Source: Acidobacteriota bacterium (GTDB lineage Bacteria > Acidobacteriota > Thermoanaerobaculia > Multivoradales > J023). Taken from it: DNA of 56,189 bases. This document shows positions 15,046 to 35,324 of the stretch, in pieces. Under the pieces are notes generated by a model that was given only the letters and a program-made list of their open reading frames with translations, searched no databases and had not been told where the DNA came from. The stretch is taken from positions 1 to 56,189 of the forward strand of contig RFGL01000092.1 of assembly GCA_003697015.1 (NCBI GenBank), in the 5' to 3' direction. A program made the position numbers and the translations under genes. The first letter of the stretch is position 1, and each line of letters begins with the position of its first letter.

Positions 15046-15663
15046 TTATCCGGCGTCTCTTCGGCTCAACCTCGCCTCGAGCTCGCGGCAGAGTTTGTCG
15101 AAGGAAGGACACCGTCGCCGGCACAGGGTCAGATCCATCCTCGCCGTCATCGACGGCTGGTCAGCGGTCTCGCTGTACTTCGGGCCTCGGAAACGCTTCG
15201 TGATCCAACCCTTTCCGGCCCGTTTCCCCTCGGGATCCTCCGGCGGCTCTTCCGGCTGGAGCTCCAGCAGCTCGCGCAGCGACTCCGCCGCACCGACGAA
15301 CCACGTCTCGTATTCCACCGTCGCCACGACGCACGCGACGTCGGCGTCGCCGCGGGTCTTCCGGGCCCGAGCCAGCAGCTTCGGCCCGAGGATGCACGGA
15401 GGGTCCTCGTCCGCGTCGATCAGGATGAGAATCAATCCCGACGACAGCTCTTCGCATCGTTCTTGCAGCTTCAGTGCGGCCAGCTGAACCGCCCGCCCCA
15501 GCTCGTCGTTCTTCTCCGACAGCAGAGAGCTGCGGCGCCGGCGGATCGGGCGTATGACCTGCGGGTAGTCGAGATCGAATTGCTCCGCGATGCGCGTCAA
15601 GAGGAGCCGGATCGACTCCTGCTCCCCGTGACCCTCGACGATCGGAGCGATGACCGCCGTCAT
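15046..15663 (-). CDS. DUF4276 (TOPRIM-like) protein, module 2
   Basis: This is a 205-residue protein. It opens with APIVEGHGEQESIRLLLTRI (about residues 5-24), the VEG..E motif of DUF4276/TOPRIM-like folds. An acidic strand follows, LILILIDADEDPP (about 78-90), and then VATVEYETWFVGA (about 112-124). The acidic residues are placed as in metal-dependent TOPRIM sites. Its ATG overlaps the stop of the upstream ATPase gene by four bases, the same arrangement as in module 1. It is probably the effector or nuclease half of an ATPase-TOPRIM module. Known relatives with this gene pairing act in phage defence; the actual substrate is unknown. Confidence 0.8.
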   Translation of the reverse strand: MTAVIAPIVEGHGEQESIRLLLTRIAEQFDLDYPQVIRPIRRRRSSLLSEKNDELGRAVQLAALKLQERCEELSSGLILILIDADEDPPCILGPKLLARARKTRGDADVACVVATVEYETWFVGAAESLRELLELQPEEPPEDPEGKRAGKGWITKRFRGPKYSETADQPSMTARMDLTLCRRRCPSFDKLCRELEARLSRRDAG

Positions 15664-16913
15664 GCGCGCTCCGGCACCGGCCGGCCGAAATCGATCTCCA
15701 TCTGTTGCTGGCGTCGTACGTCCGCTCGATCGACTTCGATCTGATCCATTCTCAACAGATCGCCGGCTGAATACAGGTGCGAGCGAACCGCCTCTACACT
15801 CGCTCGATCGGCCGCGGCGACGTGCGTCTTGCCATCCTCGGAAACCACCGCCAGGAGCCCTTCGTCGTCCGCGTGCTCGCCGTCAAAGCGGATTTCATCG
15901 AGCAAGTCCGGGCTGTGGCTGGTGACGACCACCTGGGTGTGCTCGACGGCCTCACGGAGGCCGTCGACGAGAGCCGCGGTCGCCGCCGGATGAAGAGCAC
16001 TCTCGGGCTCCTCGATTCCCACCAGGGAGACCGTTTGACCGGGGGCGGACAGCTGGGAGGTGGCGATGAGCGCGCCGAGGGCGCGCAGGGTGCCGTCGGA
16101 CATGCTCTGGGCATAGAACTTCCAGGGATGCTTCGCACCCGCCACAGACTGCCGGAATTGCAAGGTTTCCCTCGGGCCGAGGGCCACTCTGCAGACGCCT
16201 GCAATTCCGGGGACGATGGTGGCTAGATAGTTTTCAACCCGCTTGACGATCGCGGGCTCCTCACGTTCCAAGCGGGCGACGACGCTGGCGACGTTCGAGC
16301 CGTCGCGATGAAGCAGCTCCCCGGCATCCGGGCTTTGGAGCTCTTTCATCGCTTCGGGGTTCAAGTTATAGAATCCCATGGAAACCAAGGCGTCGTACGC
16401 TGGTCTGAATTGAGCGAAACCGCTGGCGGCGACCAGGTAGAGGCGATCGGACAGAGGTTGAGGAAGGTTGGGCAGCGAGCCGGCCACATCGTTTTCTCGG
16501 CGTACGAATGATGCATTACCGGAGGCGGGTGACAAGATGCCCAGGCGCTCGGCGTTGACGGCGAAACCGCCCTGCGAGCGGGCCGCGATCTCGAAGCCGT
16601 AGCTCGCTTGGGTACCATCCGGCAGCTGGAACTCCACGGCGAGGGCGAAATTTCGCGGGTGGCCGGTGCTTCGACGGCGCACTTCGTTCAGGCCGCCGCG
16701 GCTCTTGATGGCGTGATCGAGAGACGTCTGCAGAGCGTCGGCGAGAAACCTCAGCGAGTCGAGAAAATTGCTCTTGCCCGAGCCGTTTCGACCGACGAGT
16801 ACGGTGAACGGAAAGAGCGAGACGTCGCACTTGCCGATGCTCTTGTAATTGCGGATCTGGACCCGGCGCAGGAACGGGCCGGTGCCAGGCCGTGATCTCC
16901 GATCGGCTACCAC
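15660..16913 (-). CDS. AAA_21/ABC-type ATPase, module 2 (motifs intact)
   Basis: The protein has 417 residues and starts at GTG 16913 behind GAGGAGAACCTG. Walker A is GRNGSGKSN (about residues 38-46), the signature is MSDGTLRAL (about 270), Walker B is VGIEEPESALHP (about 297-308) with the catalytic glutamate present, and the H-loop is VVTSHSPDL. Its N-terminal 100 residues are strikingly similar to the next gene upstream (shared RNYKSIG, GRNG.GKSN, VRRRSTGHPR), so the two arose by duplication. Base composition is lower in G+C than the upstream paralogue. It is translationally coupled to the DUF4276 gene. It is likely the ATP-hydrolysing subunit of the module. Confidence 0.88.
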   Translation of the reverse strand: MVADRRSRPGTGPFLRRVQIRNYKSIGKCDVSLFPFTVLVGRNGSGKSNFLDSLRFLADALQTSLDHAIKSRGGLNEVRRRSTGHPRNFALAVEFQLPDGTQASYGFEIAARSQGGFAVNAERLGILSPASGNASFVRRENDVAGSLPNLPQPLSDRLYLVAASGFAQFRPAYDALVSMGFYNLNPEAMKELQSPDAGELLHRDGSNVASVVARLEREEPAIVKRVENYLATIVPGIAGVCRVALGPRETLQFRQSVAGAKHPWKFYAQSMSDGTLRALGALIATSQLSAPGQTVSLVGIEEPESALHPAATAALVDGLREAVEHTQVVVTSHSPDLLDEIRFDGEHADDEGLLAVVSEDGKTHVAAADRASVEAVRSHLYSAGDLLRMDQIEVDRADVRRQQQMEIDFGRPVPERA

Positions 16914-16947
16914 CAGGTTCTCCTCGCGGGCGAGTCTACAACAGCGG

Positions 16948-18174
16948 CTAGCCGTCGCCGTCGAAGAGGGAGAGTTGATCCTGGCGTTCGCCGGTGCGGG
17001 GGGCGGGGTGGAGTTGGTTGCGGCGCAACAGCTCGCCGACGGTGGGGTGATCGGCTCGCCGTTGTTGGGCGGCGGCGATGCGGCTGGTGCCGTCCTCGGC
17101 TTCGATCACCAGCAGGGCGTCTTTTTTCGCTTCGAGGGCGTCGATCAGCTCCGGGCTGTGGCTGGTGGCGAGGATCTGGGTGTGGGCGGCGGCTTCGCGC
17201 AGGGCGTCGACCAGGGCGGGGACGGCGGCGGGATGGAGGTCGGTCTCCGGCGTCTCGAGGCCGACCAGAGGGGCGCTGCCGCGGCGCTCGGCGTCCTGGC
17301 GGACGGCGACGAGGAGGGCGAGCGCGCGCAGGGTGCCGTCGGCCATGGCGCGGGCGGGGAGCTTCCAGGGATGGCGGGCGCCGGCCATGGTCTGGCGGAA
17401 CCGCAGGGTCTGGTAGGGCCCGAGGACGAGGCTTTCGACGCCGACGATGCCGGGGACGACGGCGCCGAGGTAGGCGGCGATGCGTTCCAGCTCCGCCGGT
17501 GCCTGGCGCTCGAGGCGGCCGACGACGCTCGCCAGGTTGGCGCCGTCGGCGGCCAGCACGGCGCCGTCGGACGGGGCGGCGAGAGCGCGGATGGCGGCGG
17601 GCTCGAAGCGGTAGAAGCGCAGGGACGAGAGCACGTCGTAGAGCGGGCGGAAGGCGTCGAAGCTGGCGGCGCGGCTGAGGTGCAGGCGGGCGCCGTCGGG
17701 AGGCGGCAAGGCGTCGATCGAGGTGCGGGTGATGGCGGCGTCGTCGCGGGCGAAATAGGCTTGGAGCCGGCCGCCGTCGTCGTCCTGGATCACCGCCGTC
17801 TCGTCGCGGATGGCGAAGCCGCCATCGCCGCGGCTCTCGACGGCGAAGCCGTAGCTCGCCAGCTGCCAGGTGGGCAGGCGCAGATCGAGCTCGAAGCGGA
17901 TGATCCGCGGGTGGCCGGTGGAGCGCCGGCGCACCGCCTCCAGCCCGCCGCGGGCGGCGATCGCTTCGGCCAGGGAGCCGCGTACCGCGTCGGCGACGAA
18001 GGCCAGGGCGTCGAGCAGATTGCTCTTGCCGGCCCCGTTGCGGCCGACGACCACCGACAGGGGCCGCAGCTCGACGTCGCCGGCGCCGATGCTCTTGTAG
18101 TTGCGCACCCGCAGCCGCCGCAAAGTCGGCCCCACCCAGCGCCACAGCTCCGTCTTCTGCCCGTCGCTTCGCAT
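16948..18174 (-). CDS. AAA_21/ABC-type ATPase paralogue with altered signature and Walker B
   Basis: This 408-residue protein is the first gene of the leftward operon and lies 34 bp before the module 2 ATPase. Walker A GRNGAGKSN (about residues 43-51) and the H-loop ATSHSPEL are intact. Two catalytic positions differ from both relatives in this window. The signature reads MADGTLRA instead of MSDGTLRA (about residue 276). Walker B reads VGLETPETDLHP instead of IEEPE (about 303), so the catalytic glutamate is Thr (codon ACG). It should bind ATP but hydrolyse it poorly, if at all. The frame is intact and codon usage is host-like (about 70% G+C), so it appears to be maintained. A structural or regulatory partner of the intact paralogue is inferred. 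Confidence 0.85.
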   Translation of the reverse strand: MRSDGQKTELWRWVGPTLRRLRVRNYKSIGAGDVELRPLSVVVGRNGAGKSNLLDALAFVADAVRGSLAEAIAARGGLEAVRRRSTGHPRIIRFELDLRLPTWQLASYGFAVESRGDGGFAIRDETAVIQDDDGGRLQAYFARDDAAITRTSIDALPPPDGARLHLSRAASFDAFRPLYDVLSSLRFYRFEPAAIRALAAPSDGAVLAADGANLASVVGRLERQAPAELERIAAYLGAVVPGIVGVESLVLGPYQTLRFRQTMAGARHPWKLPARAMADGTLRALALLVAVRQDAERRGSAPLVGLETPETDLHPAAVPALVDALREAAAHTQILATSHSPELIDALEAKKDALLVIEAEDGTSRIAAAQQRRADHPTVGELLRRNQLHPAPRTGERQDQLSLFDGDG

Positions 18175-18611: not shown

Positions 18612-19730
18612 ATGGAGACGACGAGCGACGTCCGGCCCGCTCCCCGCGTCAAGCGCATCTACAACTTCTCCCCCGGCCCGGCGATGCTGCCGGAGCCGGT
18701 GTTGGAGCAGGCGCAAGAGGACCTGTGGAGCCTCGGCGATACCGGCATCGGCATTCTCGAGCACAGCCACCGCGGCGCGGCCTTCGCCGCCGTCCTGGCC
18801 GACGCCGAGGCGCGCTGCCGGCGGCTGGCCGGCCTGGGGGACGAATGGGCGGTGCTTTTTCTGCAAGGCGGCGCCACCTTGCAGTTCGCCATGGTGCCGA
18901 TGAATTTTCTTTCCCCCGGCACCACCGCCGACTACCTTCACACCGGCGCTTGGACCCGGAAGGCGATCGCCTACGCCCGAGCCTACGGCGACGTCCACCT
19001 GGCATTCGACGGCGAGAGCTGCGCCTTCGACCACGTGCCGGAGCCGGCGGAGATCGCTCTCAGCGCCGAACCGGTCTATGCCTGGTACTGCTCCAACAAC
19101 ACCATCGCCGGCACCCAATATCCATCGCCGCCCGAGGTCGCCGCCCCCCTGATCTGCGATGCCAGCTCCGACGTCTTCGGCCGTCCGCTGCCCGTTGCCG
19201 GCCACGCCATGGTGATCGCCGGCGCGCAGAAGAACCTGGGGCCGGCGGGCTGCACCCTGGTGCTGGCGCGGCGCGACTTCCTCGAGCGCGCCCGCCGCGA
19301 TCTGCCGCCGATCCTCGATTACCGGCAACACGACGCCAAAGGCTCCTGTCTCAACACCCCGCCGGCCTTCGCCATCCACGTCATGGGGCTGGTCTTCCGC
19401 TGGCTCGAAGAGCAGGGCGGGCTGGAGGCGATGGCGCGCCGGAACGCCGCCAAGGCCCAGCTGATCTACGACGCCATCGACCGCAGCGGCGGCTTCTACC
19501 GGGCGGTGGCCCGGCCCGGCTCGCGCTCGTCGATGAACGTCACCTTCCGCACTCCCAGCGCCGATCTCGACGCGCGCTTCGCCGACGAGGCATTGGCCCA
19601 CGACATGTCCGGGTTGAAAGGCCACCGCAGCGTCGGCGGCCTGCGGGCGTCGATCTACAACGCCTTCCCCCCCTCCGGCTGCCGTACCCTGGCCGACTTC
19701 ATGGACGACTTCGCCGCCCGCCACGGCTGA
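18612..19730 (+). CDS. serC: Phosphoserine aminotransferase
   Basis: This 372-residue PLP enzyme (fold type I, class V) converts 3-phosphohydroxypyruvate and glutamate to phosphoserine, the second step of serine synthesis. The N-terminus has the hallmark YNFSPGPAMLPEPVLEQAQ. The PLP-lysine motif is MVIAGAQKNLGPAG (lysine at about residue 205), and near the C-terminus is GHRSVGGLRASIYNAFP. Length fits the family (about 360). The ATG has no ribosome site but has a TAGGAT box 6 nt upstream. The gene stands alone between divergent ATPase genes and the large kinase fusion, with no neighbouring serA or serB. Confidence 0.96.
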   Translation: METTSDVRPAPRVKRIYNFSPGPAMLPEPVLEQAQEDLWSLGDTGIGILEHSHRGAAFAAVLADAEARCRRLAGLGDEWAVLFLQGGATLQFAMVPMNFLSPGTTADYLHTGAWTRKAIAYARAYGDVHLAFDGESCAFDHVPEPAEIALSAEPVYAWYCSNNTIAGTQYPSPPEVAAPLICDASSDVFGRPLPVAGHAMVIAGAQKNLGPAGCTLVLARRDFLERARRDLPPILDYRQHDAKGSCLNTPPAFAIHVMGLVFRWLEEQGGLEAMARRNAAKAQLIYDAIDRSGGFYRAVARPGSRSSMNVTFRTPSADLDARFADEALAHDMSGLKGHRSVGGLRASIYNAFPPSGCRTLADFMDDFAARHG

Positions 19731-19818
19731 GCGCCGGCGCGCCGTCGGCGCGGTTCGCAGCGGGTCGTCGAGGGGCGGCGCGTGCTCGCGCCCGGTTCGC
19801 CACCTCGTGCGGGCGCGG

Positions 19819-19824
19819 TAGTAT
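19819..19824 (+). promoter_or_regulatory. -10 box (TAGTAT) for the kinase-fusion gene
   Basis: TAGTAT has a weak TTCGCC 17 nt upstream (19796-19801). The short leader contains a small CGCAGG/CCTGCG hairpin and the ribosome site GAGGAGAGAGG just before ATG 19864. Confidence 0.5.
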
Positions 19825-19863
19825 GGTCGGCCGCAGGAACGGTCTTCCCTGCGAGGAGAGAGG

Positions 19864-22800
19864 ATGGTGGATCCCGAACGCGCTCAGCGCGCCCGCGAGA
19901 TCGCCGCCAAGGCGTTGGGGCGCGAGCCTGCCCAGCAACGGCGCCTGATCGACCTGGCCTGTGCCGGCGAGCCGGAGCTGCGACGTGAGGTCGAGGCGTT
20001 GATCGCCGAGCGCCTGCCGCTGGCAGAGCAGCCGACCCGGGCGGTGGCCTGGCGCCACCGGCCGCGGCGGGTGGGACGCTACGAGATCCTGCATCAGATC
20101 GGCCAGGGCGGCATGGGGGTGGTCTATCGCGCCCGCGATCCGCGCCTCGACCGCGAGGTGGCGATCAAGATGCTGCCGCCGACCGAGCTCGACGCCGCCA
20201 GCGAGGAGCGCTTCCAGCGCGAGGCGCGGATCGTCGCCGCCATGGACCACCCGGCGATCGTGCCGATCCACGACCTCGGCCGCCACCAGGGCTCGATCTA
20301 CTTCGTCATGCCCCTGGTCACCGGCACCACCCTGCGCCAGCTGATCGGCGAGGGCTCCCTCGAGCTGGCGGAGATCCTCGAGATCGGCGCCCAGGTGGCG
20401 GAGGCCCTCGACTACAGCCACGGCCGTGGCGTCGTCCACCGGGACGTCAAGCCCGCCAACGTGATGGTGACCCGCGAGGAGGGAATGCTGCGGGCGCGGG
20501 TGATGGATTTCGGCGTCGCCCATACCGCCAGCGCCGAACGGCCGCTGACCCGCACCGGCGACATCGTCGGCACCTTGACCTACGTCAGCCCGGAGCAGAT
20601 CGACCGGCCGGAAGTGGTCGACGGCCGCGCCGACCTCTACGCCCTGGGAGCGGTGCTCTACGAATGCCTGACCGGCCGTCCGCCCTTCACCGGTACGGTG
20701 CAGGTGCTGATCAACCGCATCCTGCACCAGGAGCCGGTCTCCCTGCGGGTCCACGGGGTGAGCGTCGATCGCGAGCTCGACGATCTGATCCTCGGCTGTC
20801 TGGCCAAAGATCCGTCGGCGCGGCCGGCGCGCGGCAAGGAGCTCGCCGCCGGCCTGCGCCAATGCGCCGCACGGCTGGCATCCGGCGACCGCGTCGTCCC
20901 GCGGCTGGACGCCGTTCCGCGGGTCAGCGCCGAGCCGCCGCCGCCACTGCCCCTGGTCGGCCGCGAGGTGGAGCTGCGCCGGCTGCGCGAGCAACTCGCC
21001 GCCGCTCTCGCCGGCGAGTGCCAGCTGACCCTGATCGGCGGCGAGGCGGGGATGGGCAAGAGCCGCTTGTTGGACGAGGCGCTGCGCCTGGCTCGGACCC
21101 ACGGCGCCCGGGTGCTGTGCGGCCGATTCTCCAGCCGCGACAGCACCTTCCCCTTCCAGGGCCTGTGCGAGCTGATCCAGGACGCCTTTCGGCGCGATCC
21201 GAAAACCGGCACCGGCCGCGGCGGGGATCTCGACGTCGACCTCAGCGACCTGGCCCCGGGCCTGCTCGCCCTCTTCCCGGTGCTGTCGGAGATCGAGGAG
21301 ATACGGCGCGCCGGCGACGCCGCCGCGGTTCCCGCTCCGGCGCCGCGGGCGGTGGACGATCCGACGGCGGTCTTCGAGCTTCTGGCGCGCACCTTCGGAC
21401 GCCTCGCTGGCGGCCGCCCGCTGGTGCTGGCGCTGGAGAACCTGCACGCCTGCGACGTGTCGATCGATGCGCTGCAATACGCCGTCCACCGCTTGGGGCC
21501 GACGCCGACGTGGGTGCTCGGCACCTACCGCCACACCGAGATCGAACACGGCCACCCCCTGCGCCGGCTGCTGCGCGACTTCAGCGACGATCCGCGTTGC
21601 AGGCACCTGCTGCTCGAACCCTTGTCCCAGCCCGCCCTGCGCCAGTTGATCGCCCAGCAGGTCGGCGGCCAGAGCCTGCGCGACGACCTGGTGGCGCGGC
21701 TCTACGAGGCCACCGAAGGCAACCCTTTCTTCACCCGCGAGCTCCTCGCTTCGCTGATCGAGTCGGGGGGCATCCAGCGCGACCGAAGCGGCAGCTGGTC
21801 CCTCCTGCGCGAGCCCGGCGCCCTCGCCGACGCCCTGCCGGTTTCCATCCACCAGGCGGTTGAGCAACGCCTGGAGCGCCTGGCGCCGGAGCTGCAGCGG
21901 GTGCTGGCGGTGGCCGCGGTCCTCGGTCGCAGCTTCGACTATCAGGACCTGGAAGCGCTGCTGGGGGAGACCGACGAGCTCGAAGAGACGATCGACGCGC
22001 TGGTGCGCCAGGGCATCCTGGAGGAGGAGCGCAAGACCCGTGGCGACCGGCTGCGTTTCGTCAGCGGCATCGTCCGCGACATCCTCTACGCCGGCATTCC
22101 CCGCCGCCGGCGGCGCGCTCTCCACCGGCGGCATGCGCGACGGCTCGAGAGCCGCTACCGCGGCCGCGAGGAACGCGTCTACGCCCAGCTGGTCCACCAC
22201 TTCTCCGAGGGCGACGTGCCCGAACGGACGGTGACCTACGCCCGCAAGCTGGCCCGCGCCGCCCTCGAGGCCTGCTGCTACGAAGACGCCCTGCGGGTCA
22301 GCCGCACCGCCCTCGAGTTCGTCGACGAGGAAGAGGTGGTCAACGCCGCCACCGTCGAGGGCGATCTGCGCCAGATCCGCGCCGTGGCCCAGCGCGCTCT
22401 CGGCCACGTCAGCCGGGCACTGCGCGAGGCGGAACGAGCCGCCGAGATCCTGGCGCGGGTCGAGCTCTGGGAGCCGGCGGCCCGGGCCGCCCTGCTCGCC
22501 GCCGAGACCGCCTGGCAGGGGCGCCAGGTGGAGCGCGCCAGGCGCTGGATCGAGCTCGGCTGCGAGCAGGCGCGGCGCGGTGCCGCCGGCGACGCCCTGA
22601 AACGACTGCTGACCCTGGGGGCGACGGTGGCGAACCTCGGGGGCGACCACCGCCAGGCGCAAGCGCTGCTGGCGGAGGCCGAGGCGCTGGCTCCCCCGTC
22701 CACCGTTCCGGCGGACGAGCCCGTCGCCGCCGGCGGCACCCTGGTCACCGCCATGCCGCGCGCCATCTCCAGCCTCGATCCCAGCGACCTGGAAAGCGAC

Positions 22801-25680
22801 GAGGAGCTGGAGATCGCGGCGATCCTCTTCGATACCCTGCTGGCGGCGGACGAGGAGGGCAACCCCGTGCCCCTCCTCTGCCGCCGCTGGCAGGCGGCGG
22901 AGGATGGCCGTACCTTCATCCTCAAGCTGCGTCCCGACGTCCGCTTCTCCGACGGCACGCCGCTCACCGCCGGGGTGGTCAAGGCTTCCCTCGAACGCGC
23001 CGCCGGGCGCCGTCGCGATCCCCCGGCGGCCTTCCACACCCTGGTCGGCTACGACGCCTTCGTCGGCGGCTCGGCGCCGGAGATCGAGGGCATCGAGGCC
23101 CCCGCCGACGACGAGTTGCGCTTTCGTCTGAGCGAGCCCTTGCCCCTCTTCCCGGCTCTCTTGACCGCGCCGACCACCGCCATCGTCCGCCCGCGCAGCG
23201 AAGCGCAAGGGGGTGGGTTGGCCGGCACCGGCCCCTTCCGCCTGGCGCGGCGCGAGGAACGGCGCATCCTGTTGGAACGCAACCCGGCGGATTGGCGCGA
23301 GGCCAAGCCCCACCTCGAGGGCATCGAGGTGCGAACCTTCTCCGAGGCCCTCGACATCGCCAGCGGCCTGCGCGCCGGCACCATCGACGTGGCGCGGGAC
23401 CTTCTGCCCGAGGACCTCGAATCCTTGCTGCGGGATCCGCGCTGGCGTGCCGGCCTGGTCGAGGCGACGCGCAAGAACGTCTACTTCGTACTGCTCAACA
23501 CCGCCGGTCCCAGCGCGCGCCAGCTCGCCCTGCGCCGCGCCCTGGCCGGGGTCGTGCGGGTACGCGACCTGGTGTGGCGGACCCTGGGTCGCTTCGCCCG
23601 GCCGGCGGTGAGCCTGATCCCCCCCGGCGTCCTCGGCCACGATCCCGGGCGTCGCCGGCCGGTCCTCAGCCGGCAGCAGGCGCGCGAGCTGCTCGCCGGC
23701 GCCGGCCTCGAGCCGCCGATCCGCGTCCGCGCCGCCATCCATCCCCTGCTGCAGGATCGCTACGGTGGGCTGACCGCGGCACTGATCGACGAATGGGGGG
23801 CTCTCGGGGTCGAGGTCTATTTCGAGATGACGACCAGCGAGAGCTTCCACCGGGCCTACCACGACAACGCCGACGTCGATCTCCTGATCGGTCGCTGGAC
23901 CGCCGAGTACGACGATCCCGACTGCTTCACCTACGGCCTCTTCCACTCCACCGGCGGCCGCTTGCGGCGCTACTTCGCCTCCCCCGACAGCGATCGACTG
24001 CTCGAACGGGCGCGCCAGGAACGCGAGGCGATGGCGCGGGCCTGGCTCTACCAGCGCTGGGAACGCCAGCTCGACGAGGCGGCGGTGCTCCTGCCGCTCT
24101 TCCACGACGTCAACTACCGCCTGGCCCACCCCGGGGTGCGCGGGCTGGCGCTCCACAACCGGCCGCCCTACGTCAGCTACGAGACCATCTCCAAGGTGGC
24201 GGCGGACGGCGCGGCCGCCCAGCCGCCGCCGGCCCGGGGCGAGATCCACGTTCCCCTGGCGGTCAAGCTCGCCAGCCTCGATCCGCTGGCCGAAGGGCCG
24301 GTCGAGCGCTACGAAGCCGTCGCCAACGTCTTCGAGACCCTCACCCGCATCGACGAAGGGGCGCGGGTGGTTCCGGCCCTGGCGACCGCCGTCGAGCCCC
24401 TGCCAGGCGGCCGCGGCTACCGCCTGGTGCTCGCTCCGGAGGCCCGTTTTCACGACGGCAGGCCATGCACCGCGCGCGACGTCCGCCATACCTTCGAGCG
24501 CCTGCTGCGCTCGGCCCGTCGCAGCCTCCACCACCTGCTGCTGCCGATCTGCGGGGCCCGCGCGTTGCGCGACGGCAAGGCGGCCGAGCTCGCCGGCCTG
24601 CGCATCCACTCCCAGACCGAGCTGTCGATCGAGCTCGACCGGCCGCTGGCGCTCTTCCCAGCGCTCTTGAGCCACCCTGCTTTGGCGATCGTGCCCGAGG
24701 GGGAAACCTGCTTCGACGGCGATTGGCGTGCCGGTTGCGCCGGCACCGGTCCCTTCCGGGTGGTGCGGTTTACTCCCGGGGAGCGCCTCGACCTGGAGCG
24801 CAATCCCGACTACCGGCACCGCGATCTGCCGAAGAGCGAGCGCCTGGTCTTCCACCTCGGCCTGCCTTCGGAACGCATCCGCCGCGAGCTCGCCGCCGGC
24901 CGCCTGTCCCTCGCCGCCGACCTGAACGCCGCGGACGTCGAGGCGTTGCGGCGGGAGGCCCGTTTCGCCGGCGGTTACCGCGAATCGCCCCGCCTGTCGA
25001 CCTACCTGCTGGCCTTCAATACCCGTCGCGGTCCGTTCGCCGACGCCGGCGCCCGCCGCTCCCTGGCCTGGCAGCTCGACCTCGACGAGGTGCTCGCCGG
25101 CGCCGCCGGCCAGCTGGCGAGCCGCGCTCACGGCATCATCCCGCCGGGACTTCTCGGCCACGAGCCGCCGCGCCGTCCGGTGGTGGCCGCAGCACCCTCC
25201 GGTGGCGTCGCCGGCGAGCTGCGCGTCGCGGCCCTGGTCGATCCCGCCTACGCCGGTTCGTATACCGAGCTCTGGACCACCATCTGCGGCCGCCTCGAAC
25301 AGTCCGGCATCGCCGTCGAGCCGCGCTTCGGCAGTCACCCGCAGGGCGACGTCGACCTCGCCTTCGTACGCTGGGTCGCGGCCTACCCCGATCCGGACAG
25401 CTTCGCCCAGGGGCTGTTGCACAGCGAGGAGGGGCTCTTGGGCGAGCTCTGCGGCTCCCCAGAGCTCGACCGCCTGATCGCCCGCGGCCGGGAGGAGGAA
25501 GATCCTTCCCTGCGCCATGCCCTCTACCGCGAAATGGAGGAGCTCGTCGCCCGCGAGCTGCTGCTCATCCCCCTCTTCCACGAACAGACCTACCGCTTCT
25601 GCCAGCCCACCCTGCACGGCCTGCGTTTCGCCCTTACCATCCCCGAAGTGCGTTATGAAGAACTCGAGCTGGCGTCGTGA
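19864..25680 (+). CDS. Ser/Thr protein kinase fused to a STAND-like AAA ATPase and two tandem SBP_bac_5 (OppA-type) domains
   Basis: The product is a single 1,938-residue polypeptide. The kinase spans about residues 72-340: glycine loop GQGGMGVVY (about 80), AIKM lysine, catalytic HRDVKPANV (about 193-201), DFGVAH and TYVSPEQ. An AAA_16-type ATPase begins at LVGREVELRRL; Walker A is GGEAGMGKSR (about 393-402), and a LALENLH strand stands at the Walker B position. A helical repeat region follows (about 730-930). Then come two ABC-transporter family 5 solute-binding domains, about 955-1,450 and 1,457-1,930. Each has the order RP-DVRFSDG or APEARFHDG, GTGPFR, LERNP.Y and an AYPDPD or EYDDPD tail. 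I find no signal peptide or membrane segment, so the binding domains appear cytosolic. It would be a kinase gated by an intracellular ligand. SgrR is a precedent for a cytosolic SBP_5 sensor; this fusion is unusual. Confidence 0.9.
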   Translation: MVDPERAQRAREIAAKALGREPAQQRRLIDLACAGEPELRREVEALIAERLPLAEQPTRAVAWRHRPRRVGRYEILHQIGQGGMGVVYRARDPRLDREVAIKMLPPTELDAASEERFQREARIVAAMDHPAIVPIHDLGRHQGSIYFVMPLVTGTTLRQLIGEGSLELAEILEIGAQVAEALDYSHGRGVVHRDVKPANVMVTREEGMLRARVMDFGVAHTASAERPLTRTGDIVGTLTYVSPEQIDRPEVVDGRADLYALGAVLYECLTGRPPFTGTVQVLINRILHQEPVSLRVHGVSVDRELDDLILGCLAKDPSARPARGKELAAGLRQCAARLASGDRVVPRLDAVPRVSAEPPPPLPLVGREVELRRLREQLAAALAGECQLTLIGGEAGMGKSRLLDEALRLARTHGARVLCGRFSSRDSTFPFQGLCELIQDAFRRDPKTGTGRGGDLDVDLSDLAPGLLALFPVLSEIEEIRRAGDAAAVPAPAPRAVDDPTAVFELLARTFGRLAGGRPLVLALENLHACDVSIDALQYAVHRLGPTPTWVLGTYRHTEIEHGHPLRRLLRDFSDDPRCRHLLLEPLSQPALRQLIAQQVGGQSLRDDLVARLYEATEGNPFFTRELLASLIESGGIQRDRSGSWSLLREPGALADALPVSIHQAVEQRLERLAPELQRVLAVAAVLGRSFDYQDLEALLGETDELEETIDALVRQGILEEERKTRGDRLRFVSGIVRDILYAGIPRRRRRALHRRHARRLESRYRGREERVYAQLVHHFSEGDVPERTVTYARKLARAALEACCYEDALRVSRTALEFVDEEEVVNAATVEGDLRQIRAVAQRALGHVSRALREAERAAEILARVELWEPAARAALLAAETAWQGRQVERARRWIELGCEQARRGAAGDALKRLLTLGATVANLGGDHRQAQALLAEAEALAPPSTVPADEPVAAGGTLVTAMPRAISSLDPSDLESDEELEIAAILFDTLLAADEEGNPVPLLCRRWQAAEDGRTFILKLRPDVRFSDGTPLTAGVVKASLERAAGRRRDPPAAFHTLVGYDAFVGGSAPEIEGIEAPADDELRFRLSEPLPLFPALLTAPTTAIVRPRSEAQGGGLAGTGPFRLARREERRILLERNPADWREAKPHLEGIEVRTFSEALDIASGLRAGTIDVARDLLPEDLESLLRDPRWRAGLVEATRKNVYFVLLNTAGPSARQLALRRALAGVVRVRDLVWRTLGRFARPAVSLIPPGVLGHDPGRRRPVLSRQQARELLAGAGLEPPIRVRAAIHPLLQDRYGGLTAALIDEWGALGVEVYFEMTTSESFHRAYHDNADVDLLIGRWTAEYDDPDCFTYGLFHSTGGRLRRYFASPDSDRLLERARQEREAMARAWLYQRWERQLDEAAVLLPLFHDVNYRLAHPGVRGLALHNRPPYVSYETISKVAADGAAAQPPPARGEIHVPLAVKLASLDPLAEGPVERYEAVANVFETLTRIDEGARVVPALATAVEPLPGGRGYRLVLAPEARFHDGRPCTARDVRHTFERLLRSARRSLHHLLLPICGARALRDGKAAELAGLRIHSQTELSIELDRPLALFPALLSHPALAIVPEGETCFDGDWRAGCAGTGPFRVVRFTPGERLDLERNPDYRHRDLPKSERLVFHLGLPSERIRRELAAGRLSLAADLNAADVEALRREARFAGGYRESPRLSTYLLAFNTRRGPFADAGARRSLAWQLDLDEVLAGAAGQLASRAHGIIPPGLLGHEPPRRPVVAAAPSGGVAGELRVAALVDPAYAGSYTELWTTICGRLEQSGIAVEPRFGSHPQGDVDLAFVRWVAAYPDPDSFAQGLLHSEEGLLGELCGSPELDRLIARGREEEDPSLRHALYREMEELVARELLLIPLFHEQTYRFCQPTLHGLRFALTIPEVRYEELELAS

Positions 25681-25946
25681 CAAGGTGCCGTGACAAGGTG
25701 CCACCCTTTTTTTCAAAGTTGATCCTTCGTGGGGGCGAGAACAACGCGATCGGCAGCTTCGAGGTCCGCGAAGCGGTCCCGAGCAGTCTCGCTTGACCTC
25801 GGGCGGGCCCCTTGGAACGTGGCTGCCGGTTGACGAGGCCGATACCGGGCGCACGACGACGGTTTCGGCTCCGATAGGGGGAACCGGCGGCATGGTTCGG
25901 TTCGGTCGTCGGTTGGCGGATCGCTGGCCACGGAGGCCGGCTCGCC
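25681..25946. repeat. Gene-free gap with one GGTGCCACC-core repeat (T-tailed) at 25696-25713
   Basis: Directly after the kinase-fusion stop comes a short partial copy (AAGGTGCCG, 25682-25690), then the full AGGTGCCACCCTTTTTTT (25696-25713). The T-run lies on the strand that reads out of the kinase gene. The core GGTGCCACC is almost palindromic. The remaining ~230 bp show no gene; this is the 3' side of the RAYT gene. Confidence 0.7.
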
Positions 25947-26882
25947 TCAAGGGGCGCGGATCGGCCCCGCACGTACGAATGGCTGACCGGGTGGGAAGCA
26001 GCCTTCAGGGAAGCGTACGTCGCGCTCGCCGGCGCGAAGTCGTGCAGATGCTTCGCGAAAGGCGGCGACGAAATCCGAGTAGGCTCGGCGTAAGAGTCTC
26101 AAGCTCTCGCCGCGGGCGTGAAAGTCCGGGGCCGGTGACCGGCTCAAGACCTCAGGCCGCGCATGGGGATCCTGAGCAGCGATGGCCCTCGCACCAAGAA
26201 CGGCTGTGCCGCGCTGGCGACGGTCGTCTGCGGCTTCCTGCTCAATGGTCGAAACCAGGTCAGCGACGCGTTGCCGATAGTTCTTGACCGGCAGGTGACG
26301 CCAGCAGGGCAGGGGGTCGAAAACCAGCATTTCCGGGGTGGCGTGGGCGTATGGATCGTCGTCCCGGCCACGCTGGCGGGCCTGGCATTCGGCGGTGCGA
26401 TCGAACCAGAAGCCGGTAAGGGGCCGCCCCTCGACCAGCGCCGCGGCACAATGCACGCCCGGCCAGTCGTAGGGACTTCGGACAAGGCCTTCTTTGGTGC
26501 CTTGAGACAGCACATACTTCAACCGGCGCACCTGGGTAGCTTCGTCTTGACTGACGACCACGCCGTCGTAGCGCCGGGCCCAGATCTTGTCCGACCAGCC
26601 GTGCAGCCGTCGCACTTCTTTGGCCAGCTTCGCGTTGAAGTACGCCATGAAGCGCGCCAGGCGCTCAGCGTCCTCCACCCAGGCCAGCAGGTGGTAGTGG
26701 TTCGACAGCACCGCGACCCCGCATACCGCGATCGGGTACTTGCGCTGCGCTCGCGCCAGAGCGCCGATCACGGTTTCGTTGAGCTCGCGGCTCGGCCGCA
26801 GCAGAAGGCGGCCCTGGATGGTCCGGGAGGTGATCTCCACCAGGGCGCCGCCAGGGGGGATGTAGCGTAGTTTCCTCGCCAT
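25947..26882 (-). CDS. REP-associated tyrosine transposase (RAYT), IS200/Y1-like
   Basis: This 311-residue member of the Y1 HUH-endonuclease family has the metal-binding HUH as NHYHLLAW (H62, H64). The candidate nucleophile is Tyr123 in RRLKYVLSQGTKEGLV, followed by the SPYDWP motif typical of RAYTs. A C-terminal extension (about residues 150-311) is basic and not otherwise recognised. No IS200/IS605 ends or companion gene are seen. Instead GGTGCCACC-core repeats lie on both sides (25696-25713 and 27038-27214). RAYTs are normally single-copy and vertically kept, and they mobilise or maintain REP sequences. ATG 26882 follows a TATAGG box by 5 nt. Confidence 0.88.
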   Translation of the reverse strand: MARKLRYIPPGGALVEITSRTIQGRLLLRPSRELNETVIGALARAQRKYPIAVCGVAVLSNHYHLLAWVEDAERLARFMAYFNAKLAKEVRRLHGWSDKIWARRYDGVVVSQDEATQVRRLKYVLSQGTKEGLVRSPYDWPGVHCAAALVEGRPLTGFWFDRTAECQARQRGRDDDPYAHATPEMLVFDPLPCWRHLPVKNYRQRVADLVSTIEQEAADDRRQRGTAVLGARAIAAQDPHARPEVLSRSPAPDFHARGESLRLLRRAYSDFVAAFREASARLRAGERDVRFPEGCFPPGQPFVRAGPIRAP

Positions 26883-27017: not shown

Positions 27018-27214
27018 GCCACCTCTAGGTGGCCGATAAAAAGGGTGGCACTTGCCATGGGTCACCTTCCATGGGCACCTCCCGTGGGGGGTAAGAAGGG
27101 TGGGACCTGTGGGGGCCCGTAGGGCAGGCCATCCGTAGGGGATAAAAAGGGTGGCACCTGTGGGTGGCACCTGTGGGTGGGGATAAAAAGGGTGGCACCT
27201 GTGGGCGGCACCTG
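27018..27214. repeat. Repeat cluster upstream of the RAYT gene (four T-tailed GGTGCCACC-core copies, plus partial units)
   Basis: On the plus strand AAAAAGGGTGGCACCTG occurs at 27144-27160 and 27185-27201. Diverged copies are at 27038-27053 and 27093-27109. Shorter GGTGGCACCTG or GGCGGCACCTG units follow two of the copies. At the left end is a perfect inverted repeat GCCACCT-CT-AGGTGGC (27018-27033). The cluster fills most of the 380-bp gap between the divergent RAYT (26882) and membrane sensor (27263) genes. All copies have their T-run on the minus strand. Confidence 0.75.
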
Positions 27215-27246
27215 GGGGCAGCGCCCTTGGGCAGGGCGATCCAGGG

Positions 27247-27252
27247 TATGCT
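27247..27252 (+). promoter_or_regulatory. -10 box (TATGCT) for the membrane sensor gene
   Basis: TATGCT is followed by GGGGAGAGCG and ATG 27263. The weak TTGGGC at 27227-27232 is only 14 nt upstream, so no -35 is claimed. Confidence 0.4.
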
Positions 27253-27262
27253 GGGGAGAGCG

Positions 27263-30200
27263 ATGATCAAGGCCCCGGATGACGGCGACCCTGCGGGCAG
27301 CGCGCTGGCCGGCAGGAAGGAGGTTTCGCGACGGCACGGTCGCAGCCTCGCCCCCCTGGCCTGGGTGATGCTGCTGCTGGTGGTGCCGAGCCTGATCTAC
27401 GTCTTTTACGTCCTCGATCAGATCCGGGCGCTGACGGAGGGCAATCTGCGTCTCCTCGGGCGGGCCGCAACCCGCCTTGAAGCGGTTCTCGACAACGCCG
27501 CGACGACGGTGAAGAACCGTGCTCTGGACCTGCGCTTCGCCTGTGACTTCGTCGACCGCCAGCCTTACCTCACCCTGGTCGAACCCGGTCGCTGTGAGAC
27601 GTTGCAGCGCTACGGGCCGGCAGAGGTTGAGATCGAGACCCGCTACGACGCCGGCCGGGGCAGGCTCCTGCTCACCGCTGTGCCGCAGGGGGACGCCGGG
27701 TGGGAAGGCTTTTCGTTCGCCGTCGAGCTCGAACGGATCCTGCACGAGGTGCCGCTGGCGGATCACTTCGACCTCCTGCTCCTCGCCGACCGCCGGGGCG
27801 ACGTGGTGGTGCAGGTGGCGGGGGACGGCGCCGCGGGCCACGGTCTGCGCATCACCCGCATCGACAAGCTCCCAATGGTCCGCGGTGGGGAGGAGCCGCT
27901 GGCGTTTGCCGCCGTTCAACGGGCGAGCCTGGAGCGCTCGGTAGAGCTCTTCGACCGCGATCACAGGCTCTTTTGCCAGCCCTTGGCGGTGCGTGGCGGC
28001 GCGGCCGGCGCTTGGGCGTTGTGCGGCCTGGTGCGCTCCGGCGACACCTTCCAGCAGGCCCTGGTGGTCTCTCCCATCCTCACCCTGATCTTGATCCTAT
28101 TGCTGATCTTCGGCCTCCTGACCTGGCCGTTCATCAAGCTCTTCTCCCTCGACCGCCGCGAGCGCTTCCGCTTTGCCGACGGCTTCCTCCTCCTCTTCTG
28201 CACCTTCGTGTTGCTTCTGCTCCTCACTCTACTGACCTCCGAGTGGGATAGCGGCAAGCGTCTGCACGAGGCCACCGAGACGAGCCTCGAGGTGCTGGCT
28301 GCCGAGCTCGAAGAGGATCTGCTCGCTGAGCTCAACCGGCTCTACGACCAGGTGGTGGCCTTCGATCGGCATCTGTGCGCGCAGCGGATGGAGCTCGACG
28401 TCTGCGGCCTCAAGGAGGACGCCAACCTGCTCGATCCGAAGAGGCCGCCGGCTGCGTTTCGCCTGCCACGACCGGCGATCGAGGACTTCAGCTCGGTATT
28501 CTGGATGCGACCTTGCGACGGCTTGCAGATCGCCAAGGCGACGGTGCGCAGCAAGAACACGCCGGCGGTCCGGCTGGGGCACCGCGAGTACTTTCGCACC
28601 CTCGCCGAGGGCCGGTCTTGGAGGGTCGGCTCGCCCCCGGACGAGGAGCGCCGGTTCTTCGTCCAGGCGTTCCGCTCGGTGACCACCGGCGAGCGCGGTG
28701 CGGCCTTGTCCATCCGTTCCTGCCTGAGCGATCCCGGCGGCGTCGCCGAGCTGACCAAAGGAGAGGACTGCCGCCTGCCCCCCTGTCGATCGGCCGGCGT
28801 GGTGGTTGCCGCGATCAGCGCCCCCTTGGCTTCGGTCGACCGCGTCCTGACGGGACCGGACTTCGGCTTCGCCATCGTCGAGCCGGGAGGCGGGGTGCTC
28901 TTCCACAGCGATCGGCGGCGGGCGCTGGACGAGAATCTGCTGCTGGAGGTCGACGATTCCAAGCGCTTGAACGCAGCGCTGTCGGCGCGGATCCCGCGCT
29001 CCTTGCGCATGCGGTATCACGGGCGCCCGCATCTTCTCCACGCGGCGCCGCTGCGCGATCTGCCGTGGTCGGTGGTCACCTTCGTCGACCGCGAGCTGCT
29101 GCGGACGACGAGCATCGAGGCCCTCGCCCTGAGCCTGGTGCTGGCCGCCGCGTATCTGGTACCGCTGCTGCTCGGATCGATCGCCTTCGCCCTGATCGCC
29201 GGCCGCGAAGCGAGCTGGCTGTGGCCGGATCCCGCCAAAGAGCGGCTCTATCGCCATCTGAGTTGGATCTTCGCTCAGCTGCTCCTGGCCTTTACCCTGG
29301 CGCTCTACGCCCTGCCGGCGGAGAGCGCGCTGTTGGCGGCGTTCACCATGCCTTTGATGGCGGCGCTCATCGCCTGGTTGCGGCTCATGGCGTGGAAGCT
29401 TCGCCACCGCCGCAATGCGACTCTCTGGCGCGCGTTGGACCTCTTTTCGGTACCGTTGCTCCTGCTGCTCCTGATTCTCGGCCTGGTCGCCCTCAAGCTG
29501 GCGAATCTGTCGTTGTCCTGGCGCGATCCGTGGTTGGTCGGTCCCTTCGTCGGCATGCTGATCCTCACCGCGCTCTACCTGCTGATCCACGGCTGGCGCG
29601 ACTTCAGCCGGCCGTGGCGCTACCGGGTCAACTGGCTCGCCTGGCATTGCACGGCGATCGTCCTTTTTTGGCTGCTGCTGGCGGTGTGGCCGGCGGTCGG
29701 CTTCTTCAAGATCGCCTTCGTCAGCCAGCAGCGGGTGTTGGTCAAGCACGAGAACCTGCACCGCGCCGAGGGCGTCCGCCAGCTGGCGTGTGCGCTCGAA
29801 GACGAGCTGCGCGACGTCGCCATGCCGGATCGCGACGCGAGTCTGAACCGGCGTCTCGCGGCAGCGCGCCACCGCCATCGCCCCCACATGCTGGCGGCGC
29901 TTCACCCGGGCGGCGATCCGCCGGAGGTTTCCGACGTCGGCAGCTGGTTCGATCGAGGGCTGCGCGATCTCCTGGCGCGCTATCAGCCGCTCTACAACCG
30001 CACCACCGAGAGCCAGCGCTACCTGCTGGGGACCCGAGCAGCCGACGGAGCCTGGGAATGGCGTGGAGGCTTGGAGGGGGGCGGCGACGGCGCCATGCGT
30101 TTTCACGCTCGAGCCGGCCCCTGCCAGCGCCGGGACCTCTCCCTGGTCTCCGTTCTGCCGGTCCCCGGCCACCGGCTGACCTGGCGACTGGCAGCGGGCG

Positions 30201-31333
30201 GGGCGATCTTGATCCTGCTCCTCGCCGCCTGGGTCCGCTACTCCGCTCGACGGCTCTTCTTCGCCGCCGTCGAGGGGCAGGTGGAGCGCCTCGGGGTGGC
30301 GCAATTGGTGCGTGGCGAGCTGCCGGTCAACACCATCGCGCTCCTCGCATCCCCTCGTGACCGGCAGCTGCTGGTGGCGTCGAAGAACTACGACGTGGTC
30401 GACCTCGAGCGGCCCGTGGCCCGCGCCCAGTGGCTGGGCGGGCTCGACCACGAGGACCGCAAGCCGGTGGTCTGCGAGCATTTCGAAGACGGTCTGGCGG
30501 ACGCGGGGGTGCGGCGATTCAAGCTCGAGGTGCTGGAAAGCCTGGTCTACGCCGAGCATCGCCGGGTGCTGATCCTGTCCACCGTCGATCCCTATGAAGC
30601 GCTGCTGCGCTTCCACCACGGGGCCGGACCGGAAGCCGCCGGCGGCGCGGGGGACGACCTGGGCGACGACGAGGCCGGGCGCTGGAGTCGTCTTCTCAGT
30701 CACTTCGTGCTCAAGCCGGTGGGGCTCGACCGGCAATCCGCCGGCGCCGAGGAGGGCGATTCTCACGACGGTGAGACGTCCCTCAGCGTTCGGGTGGAGC
30801 GCGAGCTGGGGGCCACGGTCCACCTGCGGCGCTTGGTGCAGAGTGACCTGGCGAGCTTTGACAACCTGAGCCAGCGGGAGCTTCTGGAGCGGATCGTCGA
30901 CGCCGCGGAAGGCTACTACTGGGCGCTGTGGAACGCCTGTTCGGAGGACGAGAAACTGGTGCTGGTGCAGCTGGCGCAAGAGACCTTCGTCAATCCGAAG
31001 CAGCACAGCACCGTGCGGCGGTTGCTCCAGCGCGGTCTGATCGTGCGCGATCCGGTCCTGCGTTTGATGAACGATAGCTTCACACTCTTCGTCCATCGCA
31101 TCCAGCAGCCCAAGGAGGTAGCGCGCTGGGAACGCTCGCTGCGCGGTCTGGGCTGGAAGCAGCTGCGCCTCGCCTTCATCGCTCTGCTGGCGGTGGTGGC
31201 CCTCTTCCTTTTCTCCACCCAGCGCGGCTTGTTCGACGCCACCATCGGCTACGTCTCCGCCCTGGCGGTCGGCATCCCCGGCCTGATCCAGCTGCTGCGC
31301 ACGCTCTATGCCGCCGGCCGCACCGGCGGTTGA
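27263..31333 (+). CDS. Large multi-pass membrane sensor with Cache-like regions and a degenerate NTPase/winged-helix-like C-terminus
   Basis: This is a 1,356-residue protein. The frame is open further upstream through repeat sequence; ATG 27263 is chosen because GGGGAGAG and a TATGCT box precede it. A first membrane helix (about residues 31-50) is followed by an extracytoplasmic Cache-like region with helical entry. Two helices (about 265-325) lead to a second Cache-like region (about 330-615, with GHREYFRTL, FVQAFRS and GAALSIRS). A block of about seven helices (about 615-820) and another periplasmic segment with a closing helix (about 970-990) come next. The cytosolic part (about 1,000-1,280) reads like a P-loop fold without a Walker A: VVCEHFEDGL and RRVLILSTVDP. 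It ends in a winged-helix-like KLVLVQLAQETFVNPKQ...RRLLQRGLI and two C-terminal helices. The ligand and output are unknown. Confidence 0.7.
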   Translation: MIKAPDDGDPAGSALAGRKEVSRRHGRSLAPLAWVMLLLVVPSLIYVFYVLDQIRALTEGNLRLLGRAATRLEAVLDNAATTVKNRALDLRFACDFVDRQPYLTLVEPGRCETLQRYGPAEVEIETRYDAGRGRLLLTAVPQGDAGWEGFSFAVELERILHEVPLADHFDLLLLADRRGDVVVQVAGDGAAGHGLRITRIDKLPMVRGGEEPLAFAAVQRASLERSVELFDRDHRLFCQPLAVRGGAAGAWALCGLVRSGDTFQQALVVSPILTLILILLLIFGLLTWPFIKLFSLDRRERFRFADGFLLLFCTFVLLLLLTLLTSEWDSGKRLHEATETSLEVLAAELEEDLLAELNRLYDQVVAFDRHLCAQRMELDVCGLKEDANLLDPKRPPAAFRLPRPAIEDFSSVFWMRPCDGLQIAKATVRSKNTPAVRLGHREYFRTLAEGRSWRVGSPPDEERRFFVQAFRSVTTGERGAALSIRSCLSDPGGVAELTKGEDCRLPPCRSAGVVVAAISAPLASVDRVLTGPDFGFAIVEPGGGVLFHSDRRRALDENLLLEVDDSKRLNAALSARIPRSLRMRYHGRPHLLHAAPLRDLPWSVVTFVDRELLRTTSIEALALSLVLAAAYLVPLLLGSIAFALIAGREASWLWPDPAKERLYRHLSWIFAQLLLAFTLALYALPAESALLAAFTMPLMAALIAWLRLMAWKLRHRRNATLWRALDLFSVPLLLLLLILGLVALKLANLSLSWRDPWLVGPFVGMLILTALYLLIHGWRDFSRPWRYRVNWLAWHCTAIVLFWLLLAVWPAVGFFKIAFVSQQRVLVKHENLHRAEGVRQLACALEDELRDVAMPDRDASLNRRLAAARHRHRPHMLAALHPGGDPPEVSDVGSWFDRGLRDLLARYQPLYNRTTESQRYLLGTRAADGAWEWRGGLEGGGDGAMRFHARAGPCQRRDLSLVSVLPVPGHRLTWRLAAGGAILILLLAAWVRYSARRLFFAAVEGQVERLGVAQLVRGELPVNTIALLASPRDRQLLVASKNYDVVDLERPVARAQWLGGLDHEDRKPVVCEHFEDGLADAGVRRFKLEVLESLVYAEHRRVLILSTVDPYEALLRFHHGAGPEAAGGAGDDLGDDEAGRWSRLLSHFVLKPVGLDRQSAGAEEGDSHDGETSLSVRVERELGATVHLRRLVQSDLASFDNLSQRELLERIVDAAEGYYWALWNACSEDEKLVLVQLAQETFVNPKQHSTVRRLLQRGLIVRDPVLRLMNDSFTLFVHRIQQPKEVARWERSLRGLGWKQLRLAFIALLAVVALFLFSTQRGLFDATIGYVSALAVGIPGLIQLLRTLYAAGRTGG

Positions 31334-34325: not shown

Positions 34326-35138
34326 GTGAGCCAAGCCGCCTCCGACCTCGCCCGCGAGCCGCGTGAGGTGGCGTTGCCGCGGTTGCTGGAGGCCGAGGGC
34401 GGGCGGCTCTACGGTCTCGCCCGTCGGCTCTGCGGCGACCCGGAGGACGCAGCCGACCTGGTGCAGGAGATCTTCCTCATCGCCTGGCGCAAGTGGCACC
34501 AGTTTCAGGGCGCTGCCAAGCCGACCACCTGGCTCTACACCATCGCCTCCCGCGCCTGCCTGCGGCGCAAGCGACGGCGGGCCGGCGAGCCGCGCACCAT
34601 CGCTTCTTTGGATGCCCTGCTGCCGTCCGGCGAGCCCCAGGTGCCGGATCTGCCGTCGCCGGCGGAGAGCCCCCTCCACGACAGCCTGCGGCGCGAGGCG
34701 CGGGCGGCGGTGGAGCGGGCGATCGCCACCCTGCCGGTCCACTTCCGCCTGCCCCTGGTGCTGAAGGAGATCGTCGAGTTGCCGATCGCCGAGGTGGCGG
34801 CGATCCTCGGGCTCAAGCCGGCGACGGTCAAGACCAGGGTCCACCGCGGCCGCCTGTTGCTGCGCAAGGCCCTCGCCGAAACCCTCCCCAACGTCGACGC
34901 CCCGCCGCCCGACCATCCCCGCCGGATGTGCCTCGACCTGCTGCATGCGAAGCAGGAAGCCCTCGACCGCGGCGTGCCCTTCAACGTCCCGGAGAGCGAG
35001 CTCTGCCGCCGCTGCCAGGCCCTCTTCGCCACCCTCGACCTGAGCCGTGAGATCTGCCACGACCTCGGCCGCGGCGAGCTGCCGCCGGTCCTCCGTCGGG
35101 AGCTTCTCGCCGCCTTCGGCGCGCGACGCGAAGACTGA
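34326..35138 (+). CDS. ECF-type sigma factor with a Cys/His-containing C-terminal extension
   Basis: This 270-residue protein starts with GTG 34326 behind GCAGGACC. Sigma region 2 is present (GLARRLCGDPEDAADLVQEI, FLIAWRKWHQF, TWLYTIASRACLRRKRR), as is region 4 (TLPVHFRLPLVLKEIVELPI, LGLKPATVKTRVHRGR). Residues about 200-240 add a segment with C...H (MCLDLLHAKQ) and LCRRC, then a further Cys and His. The CxxC resembles the zinc-binding part of ZAS anti-sigma factors, here fused to the sigma factor, so it may be an internal redox or metal switch. No separate anti-sigma gene is adjacent. Confidence 0.85.
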   Translation: MSQAASDLAREPREVALPRLLEAEGGRLYGLARRLCGDPEDAADLVQEIFLIAWRKWHQFQGAAKPTTWLYTIASRACLRRKRRRAGEPRTIASLDALLPSGEPQVPDLPSPAESPLHDSLRREARAAVERAIATLPVHFRLPLVLKEIVELPIAEVAAILGLKPATVKTRVHRGRLLLRKALAETLPNVDAPPPDHPRRMCLDLLHAKQEALDRGVPFNVPESELCRRCQALFATLDLSREICHDLGRGELPPVLRRELLAAFGARRED

Positions 35139-35304
35139 CGCGGGCGAAAAACCTGTCCGCGAATCGGCGTCGGCGGCAGCGTCTCCACCGAAGGGGTGTA
35201 GTGTCCCGTCGCTCGCCTGAGGGAGCGCCCCCGGCGGCATCGCATCGCATGCGGGGGGCCCGAACGAGCCGCTGGCGGTCCAGCTCAGCGCCGGAACCGT
35301 CCGG

Positions 35305-35310
35305 TATGAT
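35305..35310 (+). promoter_or_regulatory. -10 box (TATGAT) for the sigma factor-kinase operon
   Basis: TATGAT lies 14 nt before ATG 35325, implying a leader of about 8 nt. I see no -35 in the GC-rich upstream sequence. Confidence 0.45.
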
Positions 35311-35324
35311 GAGCGTCAGGTACC

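Follow-up and report, generated by a model that had tools for sequence, protein, structure and literature searches.

Among described signalling proteins, PknK of Mycobacterium tuberculosis (Rv3080c) has been assigned to the STAND family (PMC9045387). The outputs of STAND kinases such as PknK are known, while their signals are poorly known. SBP_bac_5 domains are normally part of transporters; in the SgrR/DsvR transcription factors, however, such a domain serves as the sensor-type domain of a cytosolic regulator, and SgrR, which controls the glucose-phosphate stress response, has been cited as able to bind glutamate (PMC13060122). A solute-binding protein has also been proposed to control a Ser/Thr kinase with a TPR domain via a membrane partner, in the GlnH-GlnX-PknG system (PMC8546545). 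Here we describe a protein family in which a kinase, a STAND NTPase, a TPR-like arm and two SBP_bac_5 domains (SBP1 and SBP2) are joined in one polypeptide.

The window, i.e. the whole stretch of 56,189 nucleotides analysed, corresponds to contig C235 in a draft genome of 5.34 Mb (96% complete). A first-pass annotation had placed a kinase, an AAA_16 ATPase and two SBP_bac_5 domains in a single open reading frame at 19864-25680. These coordinates proved exact, the frame is single and intact with a Shine-Dalgarno-like GGAG, and Pfam finds all of the domains: Pkinase at residues 73-322 (E 9e-50), AAA_16 at 363-544 (E 5e-17) and two SBP_bac_5 stretches (4.6e-103 for both together). The same annotation would have been undone by C-terminal segments that fail the SBP_bac_5 profile (PF00496), but both copies match it over its full length and, when searched separately in the genome, gave 2.7e-56 (window 22861-23955) and 2.1e-47 (24367-25428). 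None of the NCBIfam equivalog models reaches its cut-off against the query. The features are as follows.

19864..25680, + strand: whole gene, 1938 residues, kinase - STAND NTPase - TPR arm - SBP1 - SBP2; ATG at 19864, stop ending at 25680
19853..19863, + strand: Shine-Dalgarno-like GAGGAGAGAGG before the ATG (sequence; GGAG five bases upstream)
19864..20043, + strand: N-terminal leader, residues 1-60, missing in most relatives (sequence)
20080..20829, + strand: Ser/Thr kinase domain, residues 73-322 (Pfam); K102, E120, HRD 192-194, D215-F-G and activation-loop T229/T237 family-wide
20950..21495, + strand: AAA_16 NTPase, residues 363-544 (Pfam)
21037..21066, + strand: Walker A GGEAGMGKSR, residues 392-401; G393, G396, G398 and K399 in 26/26
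21418..21456, + strand: Walker B PLVLALENLHACD, residues 519-531; first acid E in 24/26
21718..21729, + strand: GNPF motif, residues 619-622 (sequence alignment)
22102..22686, + strand: TPR-like helical arm, residues about 747-941; ten regular helices in the structure model
22726..24198, + strand: SBP_bac_5 domain 1, residues about 955-1445 (Pfam, alignment, structure model)
23905..23907, + strand: E1348, equivalent of OppA Asp419 in SBP1 (alignment; D or E in 22/25 SBP1)
24232..25677, + strand: SBP_bac_5 domain 2, residues about 1457-1938 (Pfam, alignment, structure model)
25381..25383, + strand: A1840, equivalent of OppA Asp419 in SBP2 (alignment; D in 22/27 SBP2, not in the query)

An antisense open frame of 2083 residues spans the whole gene (window 19699-25950, - strand) and is probably a shadow of GC-rich codon positions, not a gene.

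The first part of the protein has the features of a PknK-like STAND kinase, with a Hanks-type N-terminal kinase, an AAA_16 domain with Walker A/B and a GNP motif, and, in the model, a TPR-type arm. In the kinase, Lys102, Glu120, HRD, the Asp and Gly of DFG, the SPE motif and the activation-loop threonines are kept in 26/26 or 25/26 members, which suggests that it should be active. The Walker B motif differs from the usual DD, its second position being D in 11 and N in 10 of 26 members (N in the query), a make-up that would be compatible with a slow, switch-like ATPase. The GNPF motif is a hallmark of STAND-type proteins. As for the helical repeats that had been claimed, the ten helices of the arm are present in the model of the query but no TPR profile matches its sequence; the TPR_12 or TPR_MalT profile does match in some relatives. 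How the domains are placed relative to each other in the kinase-STAND model is uncertain (pTM 0.43), a Foldseek search with this model returned kinases only and was uninformative on the NTPase, and the STAND part, searched by sequence against the PDB, gave no match.

The SBP pair, modelled as a unit with high confidence (pLDDT 88.5, pTM 0.88), forms two complete two-lobe OppA-like folds. Its nearest solved structures are MppA (open form, TM 0.81 on target), OppA, DppE and NikA; some of the best matches are open or unliganded forms, and by sequence as well as fold the closest proteins are oligopeptide and murein-peptide binders. The pockets were examined for conserved ligand contacts, as the first-pass annotation had proposed, using OppA mature numbering that was verified at 18 positions. 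In OppA, Asp419 binds the peptide amino group. The equivalent site holds 19 Asp and 3 Glu among 25 SBP1 domains and Asp in 22/27 SBP2 domains, so that this anchor acid is present in most domains and missing in 3/25 and 5/27, respectively; the query itself has Glu in SBP1 and Ala in SBP2. Conversely, conservation of the 25 OppA pocket positions as a set is not above that of the rest of the domains, and the wall formed by 413-423/483-485 is the only part of the pocket that exceeds it. Novel relative to OppA are an Arg before Trp (site 415) and, where OppA has Tyr485, an acid, both nearly invariant in SBP1 and SBP2, as well as an Arg-Asp at 245-246 that is characteristic of SBP1; the pocket wall has gained charged residues. 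R413, H371 and K307, which contact the peptide carboxylate in OppA, are substituted in nearly all members, and an ordinary short-peptide ligand is therefore not assured. The putative site thus appears to keep the amino-group anchor in most members while being rebuilt elsewhere. A peptide is our first guess, and amine-bearing small molecules other than peptides are further candidate ligands.

The protein had been described as cytosolic, without signal peptide or membrane helix, and the hydrophobicity scan agrees: neither of these was found in the query or in 18 relatives, and the query has no lipoprotein motif. The highest 19-residue Kyte-Doolittle mean is 1.39 in the query and at most 1.86 in the relatives, compared to 1.97-2.54 for a control signal peptide and transmembrane helices scanned alike (a lipoprotein signal and MCP membrane helices), with 1.73 for the second helix of one MCP control. 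A membrane segment placing the SBP part outside the cell was looked for in the same scan; the query has no segment hydrophobic enough to do so, and the SBP part is predicted to be cytosolic. The ordinary SBPs of these genomes do have a signal peptide or lipoprotein motif.

With one genome searched per species, the family was found in 15/149 of the class and 15/396 from the phylum. After removal of overlap, at least 22 species from 12 family-level groups carry it among about 500 sampled species of the phylum; this count is a lower bound because only two candidates were scored in each genome of the phylum search. Relatives are 40-50% identical to the query over the full length, and 22 complete four-part copies, including the query, were read, the others being cut by contig ends or frame-broken. 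Because full-length identity at this level and intact frames recur in many other genomes, the architecture is beyond chance. Several genomes hold two to three divergent copies, with three each in G002, G005 and G095, and the query genome contains a paralogue (L016) in which all four parts are present at 57, 48, 48 and 49% identity. Broken frames were seen in three copies from one family-level group (G095, G092), at L075:11235-11237, L078:3207-3209 and L077:1903-1904. The breaks fall at different points within the SBP part, and one copy lacks about 125 residues; the copies are either decaying paralogues or assembly errors.

In the maximum-likelihood tree of the SBP domains, 25 SBP1 form one clade and 27 SBP2 another (100/100 each), and the two are sisters (100/99). 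The binding domain is thus duplicated as had been proposed, and the joined clades indicate one old duplication before the family spread through the phylum. Two copies with a single SBP (L079, L080) retain a domain that belongs to SBP2, which suggests that SBP1 was probably lost there. Matches to the STAND part at E <=2.8e-79 are all family members or contig-truncated pieces, and the next match follows at 4.6e-46 with about 30% identity. Every full-length member of this STAND branch carries SBPs, whereas none was found in the six next relatives scanned (0/6), four of which are kinase-AAA_16-TPR and two Trans_reg_C-AAA_16-TPR proteins, one of the latter with an extra C-terminal GerE helix-turn-helix. 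Judged from these sequences, it is the SBP pair that defines the branch. No match was found in plasmid records, and a contig scan of named genomes with the whole protein returned mostly other kinases; a Terriglobia match (L013) contains the N-terminal leader of the kinase, which tentatively suggests Acidobacteriota as the phylum.

Two members differ in the part that precedes the NTPase. L084:2548-8973 (-) has two complete tandem kinase domains before the STAND NTPase, and L088:6993-12323 (+) has a Trans_reg_C winged helix instead of the kinase, with an equivalent STAND-SBP-SBP core. As the SBP2 domain of L088 is nested in the tree among those of members with a kinase, the swap from kinase to winged helix looks derived. 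With the kinase replaced in one case and doubled in the other, the effector is exchangeable and the STAND-TPR-SBP-SBP core constant. It is this that most strongly suggests a single sensor-switch unit, made up of the NTPase, the arm and the two SBPs, which would drive the attached effector.

A serC-like class-V aminotransferase gene precedes the gene in the same orientation, and a weak Y1_Tnp (IS200/REP-type) gene follows it in the opposite one. Across relatives, neither a conserved operon partner nor recurring permease or ABC-transporter families were found beside the gene, which is therefore probably self-contained. In several relatives, though not in the window, the gene directly upstream encodes a Ser/Thr kinase or a TPR regulator. 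Elsewhere in the window (15049-18174, - strand), the candidate defence pair HEC-01B/HEC-01A of PADLOC is matched by a DUF4276 gene (6.9e-60) and the AAA_21 ATPase gene that overlaps it (1.7e-149); another HEC-01A-like ATPase adjoins them (1.6e-126). A 1389-residue protein with several long hydrophobic segments and no Pfam family at 0.001 is encoded at 27164-31333 (+), and an ECF-type sigma factor gene (34326-35138) is followed by a Ser/Thr kinase-TPR gene (35954-38698) at 34326-38698 (+).

The first-pass annotation had read the protein as a sensor inside the cell that responds to a peptide or small ligand by switching a kinase. This is still the best-supported reading, owing to the STAND order of effector, switch, arm and sensor, the effector swap, the kept anchor acid and the absence of an adjoining transporter, and we consider a cytosolic one-protein ligand sensor that switches a STAND-controlled kinase reasonably probable. 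The two C-terminal OppA-like domains would be the sensor, binding a small cytosolic or imported ligand, for which a peptide or some other molecule that carries a free amino group is the likeliest candidate. Cleft closure would be relayed via the TPR-like arm to the NTPase, which would act as a nucleotide switch and probably enable self-assembly. Assembly would gather the kinase domains, allowing mutual phosphorylation of the activation loops and, in turn, phosphorylation of other proteins. Domain order, kinase motifs, Walker A, missing export signals, conservation, SBP duplication and kinase replacement are observed; from them we infer that a ligand binds and of what kind it is, as well as switching, assembly and targets. 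Points against the sensor reading are the unremarkable pocket set, the lost carboxylate residues, Glu and Ala at the anchor sites of the query, the Walker B motif, the uncertain domain placement in the kinase-STAND model and the two single-SBP relatives.

A cytosolic sensor for a non-peptide ligand (amino acid, polyamine, sugar phosphate or alike), in the manner of SgrR-type regulators, is a sub-case of the sensor reading with regard to the switch and a rival with regard to the ligand. The role of SgrR in glucose-phosphate stress and its cited glutamate binding speak for it, as do the lost carboxylate anchors and the charges gained in the pocket wall; the nearest folds and sequences bind oligopeptides and murein peptides, however, and most members keep the amino-anchor acid, so that we hold this option to be possible but doubtful. 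The same loss of carboxylate-binding residues, together with the ordinary conservation of the pocket set and the domains that lack the anchor acid, would also fit SBP domains that bind no ligand and serve in protein-protein interaction, e.g. as a scaffold that docks a partner kinase or transporter subunit and integrates protein signals. The kinase or TPR regulator genes next to several relatives, on the upstream side, speak for it as well. A scaffold appears unlikely, given the complete two-lobe fold with an open cleft in the model, the D/E at the anchor of most domains, the R-W in front of it and the acid at the Tyr485 site, both nearly invariant, and the retention of both copies across great divergence.

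An anti-phage STAND sensor whose SBP domains recognise a phage product is far less probable still. The STAND architecture, the kinase matches to defence profiles (PD-T4-6 and others) and the HEC-01-like candidate pair 3-5 kb upstream in the window would agree with it, but the profile matches span the kinase domain only, as would be expected for any kinase of this kind, defence genes do not recur beside relatives, and several genomes carry two to three divergent copies. Finally, the usual place of SBP_bac_5 in transporters and the three broken relatives of one family-level group might hint at an ordinary transporter component or an artefact of fused frames or a pseudogene. The frame is single and intact and has a ribosome site, 21 relatives besides the query are complete, and neither a signal peptide nor a permease or ABC gene recurring nearby was found, so that this explanation can hardly be maintained.

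Returning to the sensor reading, a bolder version may be tentatively put forward. The family could represent widespread intracellular oligopeptide receptor kinases, whose twin OppA-type domains would read imported, cell-wall-derived or proteolytic peptides and fire the STAND-controlled kinase, with chemoreceptors bearing cytosolic SBPs as a second class. If true, they would be this phylum's counterpart of the cytosolic receptors that sense peptides in Gram-positive quorum sensing. Chemoreceptors (MCP) with a C-terminal cytosolic SBP_bac_5 do occur in the same phylum; their SBPs form a separate clade (100/99) with Asp at the OppA Asp419 equivalent in 16/16, and we found no published description of a chemoreceptor with a cytosolic peptide-binding-type sensor. 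Other long SBP_bac_5 frames (806-1302 residues) were considered as further fusions and rejected, being, the MCP type excepted, ordinary lipoprotein SBPs with the frame open upstream. Within one phylum, kinases, DNA-binding regulators and chemoreceptors seem to have acquired peptide-binding-type domains as cytosolic sensors, and transport-only annotation would mask such sensors. As the sensor end is a well-understood ligand-binding fold, present twice, the ligand should be directly fishable and the switch studiable in one polypeptide.

A non-exhaustive search of the open-access full-text literature gave no description of the kinase-STAND-twin-SBP architecture. The earlier label "unusual" should be revised, as the family is conserved in the phylum and has PknK-like relatives without SBPs. 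PknK, other kinase-AAA_16-TPR STAND kinases and the generic relatives of this type in the phylum share the order Ser/Thr kinase, AAA_16/STAND NTPase and TPR arm with the query; they lack SBPs, and their STAND part is about 30% identical as compared to 39-54% within the query family. Trans_reg_C-AAA_16-TPR regulators (AfsR/SARP-like, MalT-like) have the same NTPase and arm, with a winged helix in place of the kinase and ordinarily no SBPs, and L088 combines their output with both SBPs. The TOMM system kinase/cyclase fusion protein (TIGR03903), the second-best NCBIfam match of the query at 277 bits and hence below the curated threshold (705.75), likewise joins a kinase to a large C-terminal signalling region, with no SBP named. 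OppA/MppA/DppA share the fold of both C-terminal domains and, in most family members, the Asp419 equivalent (Glu and Ala in the query), whereas the query family has no export signal, is fused to a kinase and NTPase, and has substituted carboxylate-binding residues. GlnH-GlnX-PknG differs from the query in consisting of separate proteins, and its binding protein, a lipoprotein, lies outside the membrane. The analogy to SgrR drawn by the annotation holds in that SBP_bac_5 is a domain of a cytosolic regulator (PMC13060122), and the NCBIfam SgrR model matches SBP2 weakly. SgrR/DsvR differ in their DNA-binding output, single SBP and lack of NTPase or kinase, and Pfam and NCBIfam find no N-terminal SgrR DNA-binding domain in the query. 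Each part thus has a precedent, while the combination and the duplicated sensor appear undescribed, and the protein is classed as a PknK-like STAND signalling kinase with a putative sensor of the SgrR kind.
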